Shown piece after piece: positions 14,603 to 18,308 of a stretch of 35,569 nucleotides of DNA (positions are counted from its first letter, which is position 1; each line of letters starts with the position of its first letter). The notes below the pieces were generated by a model, which worked only from the letters and a program-made list of their open reading frames with translations, was not told the DNA's origin and searched no databases. Source of the DNA: Chlorobiales bacterium (GTDB lineage: Bacteria > Bacteroidota > Chlorobiia > Chlorobiales > JACMJS01); the NCBI GenBank assembly GCA_014380515.1, contig JACMJS010000145.1:1-35569 (forward strand), in the 5' to 3' direction. Position numbers and translations under genes: made by a program.

Positions 14603-15346
14603 ATGAATACATCCGCAACACACGCCCGTCGCCTCGGTAAATGGGGTTTATATTTCTGGCTCACAACCGTGATGATATTCGCCCTGCTCTCGCCGCAGCG
14701 CGTGGCGATGCTCGGCGAGACGACGAAGAATATGTATTTCCACGTTTCGATGTCTTTCACCGCTACGATTGCGTTTCTCGCTTCAATGTGGTTCAGCATT
14801 CAACTTCTGCGCACCAAAAATTTAGACTTTGATTTGAAGGCCGATGCCGCCGCAGGACTCGGCTTGTTGTTCAATGTGCTTGCGATGATCACGGGCGCGA
14901 TTTGGGCGAGATTCACTTGGGGACAGTTTTGGAATTGGGACCCGAAGCAAACGAGCATTTTTATTTTGCTGCTCGTCTATCTGACTTACTTCGTGCTGCG
15001 TTCGGCGATTGAAAGCTCGGAGAAACGGGCGAGGCTTGCCGCGGTCTATAATATCTTCGCGTTTCCCTCCGTCATTTTTCTCTACTTCGTCTTGCCGCGA
15101 TTGGTCGGCGGGCTGCACCCGGGTTCGGACAAGGGCGATGTGAATCCCGCCGTCTCCGGCACCACCGACCCGATGATTCGCATTTTTCTCTATTCCACAA
15201 CCTTCGGGTTTATCGCTCTCTTTTTCTGGCTACATAGTCTCCGCTACCGTCAACTAAAACTTGCGCAGGCGGTGGAGGAAAGAATCGCATTACGCAGCGA
15301 GCACGCTTTTCAAACCCGCGCGGTAAAAACTTTAGAACACGTTTGA
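14603..15346 (+). CDS. ccmC: Cytochrome c biogenesis protein CcmC (CcsA family)
   Basis: A 247-residue inner-membrane protein with six predicted helices. The tryptophan-rich WWD signature FTWGQFWNWDPKQTS lies near residue 107, and conserved histidines flank it (MYFHVSMSF; GGLHPG). CcmC handles heme at the periplasmic face and helps load it on CcmE. The length matches CcmC (about 245), not CcmF or CcsA. It is the first gene of ccmC-ccmD-ccmE-ccmF. The start has no Shine-Dalgarno sequence (acttcaagttcgaaATG). Confidence 0.93.
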   Translation: MNTSATHARRLGKWGLYFWLTTVMIFALLSPQRVAMLGETTKNMYFHVSMSFTATIAFLASMWFSIQLLRTKNLDFDLKADAAAGLGLLFNVLAMITGAIWARFTWGQFWNWDPKQTSIFILLLVYLTYFVLRSAIESSEKRARLAAVYNIFAFPSVIFLYFVLPRLVGGLHPGSDKGDVNPAVSGTTDPMIRIFLYSTTFGFIALFFWLHSLRYRQLKLAQAVEERIALRSEHAFQTRAVKTLEHV

Positions 15347-15353
15347 AAAAAGT

Positions 15354-15509
15354 ATGATTGAGTTTTTAACTGCTTATCCGCTTTATACCGTGCTCGCCGT
15401 TGTGCTTTCGATCTGGACGGGACTGTTCATTTATATTTACCGGCTCGATCACAAACTTTCCAAACTCGAATCGATGCTCGGCGAGGCATCTCAACGCGAA
15501 ACGAACTAG
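15354..15509 (+). CDS. ccmD: CcmD family small membrane protein
   Basis: A 51-residue ORF missing from the track: MIEFLTAYPLYTVLAVVLSI then WTGLFIYIYRLDHKLSKLE and a polar tail, ending TAG at 15507-15509. One hydrophobic helix followed by the basic, coiled RLDxKLxKLE stretch is the CcmD pattern in Bacteroidota and Chlorobiota. CcmD stabilises the CcmABC-CcmE heme release complex. It starts 7 bases after the ccmC stop and ends 16 bases before ccmE, exactly where ccmD is expected. Length, position and motif agree. Confidence 0.88.
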   Translation: MIEFLTAYPLYTVLAVVLSIWTGLFIYIYRLDHKLSKLESMLGEASQRETN

Positions 15510-15525
15510 ATAATTATTTTCAACC

Positions 15526-15921
15526 ATGACACTCAAACCGAAATTCATCGTTGGCTTCGTCGTCATTGCAAGCGTGCTCGCTTGGCTAGGCTTCACCGCG
15601 CAGGAGTGGGGCAACAACGTCATTGGCTATGCGGATTTTCACACGGCGGGCGCAACGAAAAAACTTTGTTATGTGAAAGGGTATTGGGTTAAGGAAAAAG
15701 AGACGGGCACGAACCTGAACACGTTCAGTTTCTACATGCGCGATGACAAGGGCGAAGAAGTTCGCGTGCTTTACCGCAACGGCAAACCGAACAACTTCGA
15801 GCAGGCGACCAGCGTCGTTGTGCAAGGCACATTGGAAGGTGATACATTTTATGCGAAGGATATTTTGGTGAAGTGCCCCTCGAAGTACCAATCCGAAAAA
15901 GCGGATACCAAGAAAGTTTAG
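15526..15921 (+). CDS. ccmE: Cytochrome c maturation protein CcmE, Cys-type (CxxxY)
   Basis: A 131-residue periplasmic heme chaperone anchored by one N-terminal helix (FIVGFVVIASVLAWLGF). The OB-fold core shows VKGYWVKEK, TFSFYMRDD, EVRVLYRNGKPNNFEQATSVVVQGTLEGDTFYAKDILVKCPSKY. In the classical proteobacterial form heme is bound by a His in HxxxY. Here the motif is CPSKY, Cys117-x3-Tyr121, the cysteine variant reported in archaea and in Desulfovibrio. It lies directly after ccmD. The heme attachment chemistry may therefore differ from that of E. coli. Confidence 0.93.
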   Translation: MTLKPKFIVGFVVIASVLAWLGFTAQEWGNNVIGYADFHTAGATKKLCYVKGYWVKEKETGTNLNTFSFYMRDDKGEEVRVLYRNGKPNNFEQATSVVVQGTLEGDTFYAKDILVKCPSKYQSEKADTKKV

Positions 15922-15951
15922 GAACTTGTCTCAAAACCATTGAAACGTCTC

Positions 15952-16022
15952 GAACCCCTTTCCCGCTTCGGCGGGACGCTCCCCTTTAACAAAGGGGAGA
16001 TATCCGAAGGACAGAGGGGTTT
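15952..16022. repeat. Nested palindromic intergenic element
   Basis: Between ccmE and ccmF lies a compound palindrome. An outer stem is formed by AACCCCT (15953-15959) and AGGGGTT (16015-16021). Inside are CCCGC-ttcg-GCGGG and the longer hairpin CTCCCCTTT-aac-AAAGGGGAG. The wording (accctct..tccgaagg..ctcccctttgtt) resembles dispersed intergenic repeats seen in many bacterial genomes. No second copy was found in this window. It may act as a processing or attenuation site in the ccm transcript. Confidence 0.65.
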
Positions 16023-16026
16023 CTGC

Positions 16027-16076: not shown

Positions 16077-18308
16077 ATGTTCATAGAGTTTTTTACCGGA
16101 AAGTTCATCACCATCATCGGCTTTACGGCGGCGATGCTCTCGGCCTTTGCATTCTACAAAGCGGCACAGTCGGAAAAAATCACGGCGGTGTATGACGAAT
16201 GGCTGCTGTTGGGACGGCGAACGTTTTTCGTCATGCAAGCGGCGATTGTAACCATCGGCGTTCATCTGCTCTACCTCATTCTCACCCACCAGTTTCAATA
16301 CAATTATGTGAAGCACTACAGCGACACGACGCTGAACATGTTCTACCTCGTCTCCACATTTTATGCGGGACAGGAAGGCAGTTTTATGCTGTGGATGTTC
16401 TACGGTTCGCTCTTCGGACTTTTCTTGATGCGCACCGCCCGCGAGTATGAAGCCCCCGTTATGTCCGTCCTGATGCTCTCGCAAGTCTTTCTCATCTCGA
16501 TGATTCTCGGCATCGATGTGCCGTTCATCGGCCTCATCGGTAGCGATCCGTTTGCAATCGCGGTCGGCCCTGCACCGATGGAAGGCGACGGCCTTAACGC
16601 GCTCCTGCAAAATCCGTGGATGGTCATTCACCCGCCGACGCTTTTCGTCGGGTTCTCGTCGCTCATCGTGCCGTTCAGTTATGCGGTCGCCGCGATGTGG
16701 AAAAAAAAATACGACGATTGGGTCAAGCCCGCGATGCCATGGATTCTGTTCAGTGCGGCGACGCTCGGCATCGGCATTATGATGGGCGGCTATTGGGCGT
16801 ATAAAGTTTTGGGTTGGGGCGGCTACTGGGGTTGGGACCCGGTGGAAAATTCTTCGCTCGTGCCGTGGCTGCTGATCGTCTCGCTGATTCACTGCGTCGT
16901 TGTGCAAAAGAAAAACGGCGGTCTCAAAAAAACATCTTTGTTCTTCGCAGTGCTTTCCTATTCCATGGTGCTTTATAGCGCGTTCCTCACGCGCAGCGGC
17001 GTCTTGGGCGACACGTCCGTGCACTCCTTTACCGATCTCGGCCTTTACAATCAACTCGTCGCTTACTTGCTCACTTTCCTGCTCGGCGGCTCGGTGTTGC
17101 TTGCGGTGCGGTTCAAAAGTATTCCCGTCAGCCGTGCGAACGAATCGATGTACTCCAAAGAATTTTTCCTGCTCTGCGGTTCGGTGGTGCTGATGATGAT
17201 TGCGCTCGTGATCGCCGCGGGGACTTCAACGCCGCTGATCGATAAACTTTTGGGCCGCGCGACGACGAAACTTGAACCTGAATTTTACAACAAAGTAACC
17301 TTGCCGCTTGCCGTCCTCATCGGTTTATTTTCCGCCATCGGACAACTGATCTGGTGGAAGAAGATTGATAAAGAAACATTGATCAAAACTTTCTCGCTGC
17401 CGGTCTCGGCGGCACTCGTCGGCACATCGGTTTTGGTCGTTGCCGGAATGCGCGACGGCAGCATGATCGTGCTTGCCCTGACAGCACTGTTCTCCGCGAT
17501 TGCCAACGCACAAATTTTTTGGAAAGTCATCCAAGGCAACCCGAAGTTTGCGGGCGGCTCGCTGACGCATGTCGGGCTTGGTCTCATGCTGCTCGGTATG
17601 ATCGGTTCGGGCAAATACAGTGAGACGCAGCAAATAGATTTGCCCATCGGACAATCGGTCGAGGCTTTCGGCAAGCAATTGAAATTCACCGGCATCGAGC
17701 CGATTGACGGCGGCGCGAAAAGCGGATTCAAAATCGAGGTTACGGATGGCGGGAAGTCATTCATAGCGATGCCGGTGATGTATGAAAATGCGCGAATGGG
17801 CACGATTTCCAATCCTGCGGTCGAGCATTATCTCACCAAAGATTTTTATGTCGCGCCGCAAGGACTTTCGGGCGGCATCACGCTGGCGAAAGATGAAGTG
17901 AAATTGCTCGGCGACTATGCGGTCAAGTTCACCGGCTTCAACGTGCCGAAAGATATTGATGCCAATTCGGATAAAGCCTTGCGCATCGGGGCGTTTTTGG
18001 AAATCACGAAAGGCGGCAAGATGGAAAAAATTGAACCCGTGTTCGTCATCGAAAAGAACCGGGAGCCGCAGATGATTCCGGCATCGATGACGGGCGACGG
18101 CATCAAGTTTATGCTCAGTGAAATCGATGCGACGAACAAGCGCATTTTCATCACCGCCGACGGCCTGCAAACCCTGACGATTGAAGCAAGCATCAAGCCT
18201 TTCATCGGCGTGCTCTGGCTCGGCACGTACATCGTCGCCGCAGGTTTCGCACTGTCGATCTACCGACGGTGGAAAGAGCGGAAAATTGTCAAAGCCATCG
18301 CCGCGTAA
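16077..18308 (+). CDS. ccmF: Cytochrome c heme lyase subunit CcmF (CcsA/CcmF family)
   Basis: A 743-residue polytopic membrane protein. Family signatures are GQEGSFMLWMF near residue 98, LLQNPWMVIHPPTLFVGF near 180 (conserved His), the WWD heme-handling motif GWGGYWGWDPVENSSLVPWL near 245, and the LTRSGVLGDTSVHSFTDLG loop with another His. A large periplasmic domain (about 530-700) precedes the last helix. CcmF takes heme from holo-CcmE and attaches it to CxxCH motifs of apocytochromes. The length is near the family norm (about 650-750). It is last in the cluster. No CcmH or CcmG follows. Confidence 0.95.
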   Translation: MFIEFFTGKFITIIGFTAAMLSAFAFYKAAQSEKITAVYDEWLLLGRRTFFVMQAAIVTIGVHLLYLILTHQFQYNYVKHYSDTTLNMFYLVSTFYAGQEGSFMLWMFYGSLFGLFLMRTAREYEAPVMSVLMLSQVFLISMILGIDVPFIGLIGSDPFAIAVGPAPMEGDGLNALLQNPWMVIHPPTLFVGFSSLIVPFSYAVAAMWKKKYDDWVKPAMPWILFSAATLGIGIMMGGYWAYKVLGWGGYWGWDPVENSSLVPWLLIVSLIHCVVVQKKNGGLKKTSLFFAVLSYSMVLYSAFLTRSGVLGDTSVHSFTDLGLYNQLVAYLLTFLLGGSVLLAVRFKSIPVSRANESMYSKEFFLLCGSVVLMMIALVIAAGTSTPLIDKLLGRATTKLEPEFYNKVTLPLAVLIGLFSAIGQLIWWKKIDKETLIKTFSLPVSAALVGTSVLVVAGMRDGSMIVLALTALFSAIANAQIFWKVIQGNPKFAGGSLTHVGLGLMLLGMIGSGKYSETQQIDLPIGQSVEAFGKQLKFTGIEPIDGGAKSGFKIEVTDGGKSFIAMPVMYENARMGTISNPAVEHYLTKDFYVAPQGLSGGITLAKDEVKLLGDYAVKFTGFNVPKDIDANSDKALRIGAFLEITKGGKMEKIEPVFVIEKNREPQMIPASMTGDGIKFMLSEIDATNKRIFITADGLQTLTIEASIKPFIGVLWLGTYIVAAGFALSIYRRWKERKIVKAIAA

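Follow-up and report, generated by a model that had tools for sequence, protein, structure and literature searches.

A Cys-type CcmE in a Chlorobiales genome, very probably the heme chaperone for cytochrome c maturation by System I*

One gene of a 35,569-nt stretch of Chlorobiales DNA (the window, which is the whole of contig C201) encodes a CcmE in which cysteine stands in place of the histidine of the HxxxY heme motif. Its neighbours are few: ccmC, ccmD, ccmE and ccmF follow one another on the forward strand, and none of ccmA, ccmB, ccmG or ccmH lies within the window. Which form of the cytochrome c maturation pathway does this gene serve, and where are the remaining components? The genome is a draft of 3.57 Mb in 420 contigs (97% complete), with Candidatus Thermochlorobacteriaceae and Chloroherpetonaceae as its closest relatives among public genomes. 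We conclude that the product is very probably the CcmE heme chaperone of System I* in this member of the Chlorobiales. System I* has already been published, and the window CcmE is another instance of it, not a new pathway. In System I*, cysteine replaces histidine in CcmE, CcmG and CcmH are dispensable and the commonest motif is CPSKY; absence of CcmH is frequent, not obligatory, according to the same 2011 review (PMC3601427). The first-pass annotation had recognised the four clustered genes, the lack of the other four nearby, the C-P-S-K-Y motif in place of HxxxY and a Cys-type CcmE of the archaeal and Desulfovibrio kind. All of this stands, and the translation places C117 and Y121 exactly where they had been numbered. 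Coordinates are collected in Table 1.

Table 1. Positions of the ccm genes and associated features (window numbering unless a contig or locus is named)
Feature	Position	Strand	Description
ccmC	14603..15346	+	WWD heme-handling protein; upstream of ccmE
ccmD	15354..15509	+	51 aa; CcmD_alt family PF20077/TIGR04391; upstream of ccmE
ccmE	15526..15921	+	131 aa; N-terminal membrane anchor and OB fold; heme motif C117-P-S-K-Y121
C117-P-S-K-Y121 motif codons	15874..15888	+	within ccmE
Palindromic element	15940-16023		ccmE-ccmF gap
ccmF	16077..18308	+	743 aa; downstream of ccmE; long C-terminal periplasmic beta region
CcmF C-terminal 245 aa	17571..18305	+	past last heme-ligand His; all-beta periplasmic part and last membrane helix
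ccmA	G000:C415:939-1607 (locus L168)	-	found with phylum CcmA profile, 218 bits; apart from other ccm genes
Second CcmE-like protein	L144:7629-8012		
Second CcmE-like protein	L110:6768-7130		
Second CcmE-like protein	L126:8112-8540		
Second CcmE-like protein	L109:3614-3994		
Second CcmE-like protein	L113:8410-8766		

The translation contains the segment LVKCPSKYQSE, in which K-C117-P-S-K-Y121-Q-S-E takes the place of HxxxY, and the whole product matches Pfam PF03100 at 51 bits (cut-off 24.6), which identifies it as CcmE. In an alignment of 66 CcmE homologues from across the phylum, C117, P118, S119 and Y121 are invariant while mean column identity is 38%, and the Cys motif is for that reason conserved well beyond chance expectation. 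C48 was considered as a second conserved cysteine partner and rejected, since most relatives have Ser, Ala or Thr at that position. When a profile of the homologues was searched against the PDB it matched E. coli CcmE and Desulfovibrio vulgaris CcmE (2KCT); the latter is itself of the Cys type, and its KCP aligns with the KCP of the window protein. An AlphaFold model (pLDDT 90) has the OB fold of solved CcmE proteins, and its top Foldseek match is the CcmE of the CcmABCDE complex 8CE8, with other CcmE structures also found. A further, His-type CcmE elsewhere in the genome had been raised as a point to check; the profile search of the draft genome gave a single PF03100 match, the window protein, so the one CcmE found is of the Cys type and no His-type copy accompanies it.

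The partner proteins in the window appear intact. CcmC and CcmF both carry WWD domains, and reading frames are open throughout the cluster. CcmC keeps both P-His ligands (E. coli H60 and H184 correspond to H47 and H172), and CcmF keeps all four heme histidines (E. coli H173, H261, H303 and H491 correspond to H185, H272, H316 and H498). Between ccmE and ccmF lies a palindromic element that folds strongly (z-score -3.9, core CCCCTTTAACAAAGGGG) and resembles a small inserted repeat; it occurs once in the window and is absent from the relatives' loci examined, and an Rfam search of the ccmD-ccmF region gave no match.

The Cys motif is not peculiar to this organism. Of 297 phylum genomes sampled, 191 have a CcmE, and the motif was read in locus DNA taken from 60 of these in addition to those of the Chlorobiales, about 45 families in all. 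Every CcmE row (70/70; 69/69 distinct) has CPSKY or CPSRY, and a His-type CcmE is absent among the 69 distinct proteins. The Cys type is thus general in the phylum sample, which makes System I* the form that the pathway takes throughout, with CcmH lacking in nearly every case. The genes commonly run ccmB-C-D-E-F, and in ten loci an ABC ATPase gene immediately precedes ccmB; in some relatives ccmC too stands apart from ccmEF. Some lineages have, close downstream of ccmE, a second CcmE-like protein that lacks CPSKY (five loci, Table 1), four of the five with GH.HGG..PY.HA near the end. The 2011 review names delta-proteobacteria, Chloroflexi and Firmicutes as the bacterial holders of System I* (PMC3601427), and our literature search, with the primary papers of 2010 and 2006 outside its scope, returned nothing on System I* in Bacteroidota/Chlorobi; we claim no priority. 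The phylum set is a large natural resource for asking how the cysteine releases heme and what replaces CcmH.

The first-pass annotation was also right about CcmH: neither PF03918 nor a profile of divergent CcmH-like proteins finds one in the draft genome. Across the phylum CcmH is almost wholly lacking: PF03918 reaches its cut-off in 2 of the 297 genomes, and both proteins are of a zinc-ribbon type whose Cys-rich CcmH-like domains occur in tandem. PF03918 matches in other families were rejected as ordinary CcmH, since those read were zinc-ribbon proteins and one histidine kinase-like protein. The zinc-ribbon proteins (loci L156-L160 and L182-L189) combine a membrane helix with a pair of Cys-rich CcmH-like domains (C.CG.C..ESL..C.C), and their profile matches in 10 of the 297 genomes, two of these matches being partial. 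The mark of System II, ResB (PF05140), is unmatched in the window genome and in the other CcmE-bearing Chlorobiales genomes. The order is divided by pathway: all 29 Chlorobiaceae-like genomes searched carry ResB and lack CcmE (System II), and 12 other Chlorobiales genomes have CcmE and no ResB (System I*). There has been a swap between the two pathways within this one order.

ccmA had been suggested to be missing, and here the genome tells otherwise. A CcmA profile was built from nine CcmA proteins whose genes adjoin ccmB elsewhere in the phylum. In the window genome its best match, on contig C415, scores 218 bits and the second-best ABC ATPase 129; each of the eight CcmE-bearing Chlorobiales genomes searched has a single clear outlier of this kind (201-225 bits), and a System II genome of Chlorobiales has none. 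In the window genome and six relatives the gene adjoins that of RNase R (recognised by sequence, not by profile). From the outlier score and this synteny together it follows that ccmA is present, on contig C415. The best TIGR01189 match, an ABC ATPase on contig C186 (130.8 bits), was rejected as ccmA: its neighbours are two membrane permeases belonging to a different ABC transporter, and the phylum CcmA profile gives it just 97 bits. The description of the cluster as reduced therefore holds in part: CcmH is absent by profile search and ccmB was not found in the draft, while ccmA is simply elsewhere.

The check for ccmB had a mixed outcome. Neither PF03379 nor an order-specific CcmB profile finds it in the draft; the best PF03379 match (contig C306, 21 bits, under the cut-off) is a 374-aa ABC-2-type permease beside a similar permease, and was rejected. 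One could take this at face value in an assembly that is 97% complete, and suppose a truly smaller System I* that has lost CcmB besides CcmH, in which CcmA pairs with another permease or is a relic and release proceeds without CcmAB; in E. coli, after all, CcmAB is needed only for release and not for loading heme onto CcmE (PMC12077264; PMC9616876). We consider this very unlikely, however. ccmB exceeds the family cut-off in 9 of the 11 other CcmE-bearing Chlorobiales genomes, and is a lone gene wherever its surroundings were read. The two others without a match are drafts, one of 150 contigs (95% complete) and one of 340 (81% complete), and in a further draft, G019, the ccmB match is broken off at base 2 of a contig. 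Retention of ccmA in a conserved gene neighbourhood, together with the fragmented state of the draft, makes an assembly gap a likelier cause of the missing ccmB than gene loss. The scatter of the genes (ccmA, ccmB and in some relatives ccmC lie apart from ccmEF) might instead suggest a decaying remnant, with cytochromes made by a different pathway, for instance System II, but the lack of ResB in this and the other CcmE-bearing genomes of the order, the intact heme ligands of CcmC and CcmF, the intact CcmE motif and the open frames make that reading hardly credible. What was found fits a working System I*: the CcmE profile match and fold, a sole CcmE, no CcmH, the heme histidines of CcmC and CcmF, and CcmA, with CcmB known from most of the other CcmE-bearing genomes of the order and not found in this draft. 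Classical System I would have HxxxY in CcmE, and CcmH; neither is there.

How such a System I* would work here can be proposed by analogy. E. coli CcmE receives its heme from CcmC and CcmD with no need of CcmAB; CcmA/CcmB bring about release, with Tyr134 as the new iron ligand (PMC12077264; PMC9616876). In the window organism, CcmC/CcmD would likewise put heme into the periplasmic WWD/P-His site, from which it would be attached to Cys117 of CcmE; on release, presumably driven by CcmA and CcmB, Tyr121 would become the iron ligand, and holoCcmE would pass the heme to CcmF, which would attach it to apocytochromes without CcmH. The placing of heme on Cys117 with Tyr121 as ligand, its covalent attachment, the change of ligand and the sequence of events are all carried over from studies of Desulfovibrio, Methanosarcina and E. 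coli. The covalency of the Cys-heme bond is itself disputed, D. desulfuricans CcmE being reported as covalent and D. vulgaris CcmE as binding ferric heme non-covalently through C127 (PMC3884852). Cys117 may then be an axial thiolate ligand only, making CcmE a b-type heme carrier; that thioether bonds, once made, are hard to break (PMC3601427) speaks for this variant. Against it, heme is covalently bound to the CcmE of D. desulfuricans (expressed in E. coli) and of Methanosarcina acetivorans (PMC3601427; PMC9084895), and in the latter Cys120 is required for heme attachment, the covalent bond depending on the cysteine (PMC9084895). We regard the non-covalent variant as unlikely, and keep covalent attachment within System I* as the preferred reading.

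If CcmH is gone, some other protein may do its work, and CcmF draws attention by its size. Past the last heme-ligand histidine its tail measures 245 aa, about 90 aa more than the 156 of E. coli. Tails of 248-405 aa are found in 46 of 49 phylum sequences (two others are shorter, one of these being split into two frames), and the C-terminal periplasmic part is about 90-170 aa longer in the phylum than in E. coli. Structure prediction gives, with high confidence, an all-beta domain followed by the last membrane helix. Among Foldseek matches to the tail, only CcsBA, the System II synthase, and the CcmF of Thermus rise above background, at TM-scores of about 0.25. With E allowed up to 1, 20 of 45 CcmF tails match Pfam ResB (best E 1.6e-7); most of these matches are weak, lying chiefly over the last strand and helix, and E. 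coli CcmF too gives a weak match. Given these weak Pfam matches, the TM-scores and a hhalign probability of 2%, we do not accept firm homology to ResB; a beta-stranded cap common to CcsBA and CcmF has already been noted (PMC10663686). That the beta region of phylum CcmF is akin to the ResB/CcsB beta cap and does the apocytochrome binding of CcmH is doubtful, and it is a guess that the longer tail makes up for CcmH. If true, CcmF would be a functional bridge between System I* and System II.

Among the closest known systems is the System I* of Desulfovibrio (the ccm genes of D. desulfuricans; D. vulgaris CcmE, PDB 2KCT), with which the locus shares a Cys-type OB-fold CcmE and the lack of CcmH. 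The locus differs in that its genes are dispersed, with ccmA alone by the RNase R gene and ccmB alone in relatives, and in that its CcmD belongs to the 'alt' family. The streamlined archaeal Ccm of M. acetivorans (CcmABCEF1F2) likewise has a CXXXY CcmE, no CcmH and dispersed genes, whereas here CcmD is present, CcmF is a single protein and the cell envelope is bacterial. With the classical System I of E. coli (CcmABCDEFGH) it shares the heme ligands of CcmC and CcmF, the WWD motifs, the CcmE fold and the ABC ATPase CcmA, but Cys replaces His130 of CcmE, CcmH is missing and the CcmF tail is the longer (245 against 156 aa). The System II (CcsA/CcsB-ResB) of Chlorobiaceae-like genomes presumably has the same role in making c-type cytochromes, and the CcmF tail is weakly similar to its ResB; here, however, there is no ResB, and a CcmE chaperone is predicted to deliver the heme.
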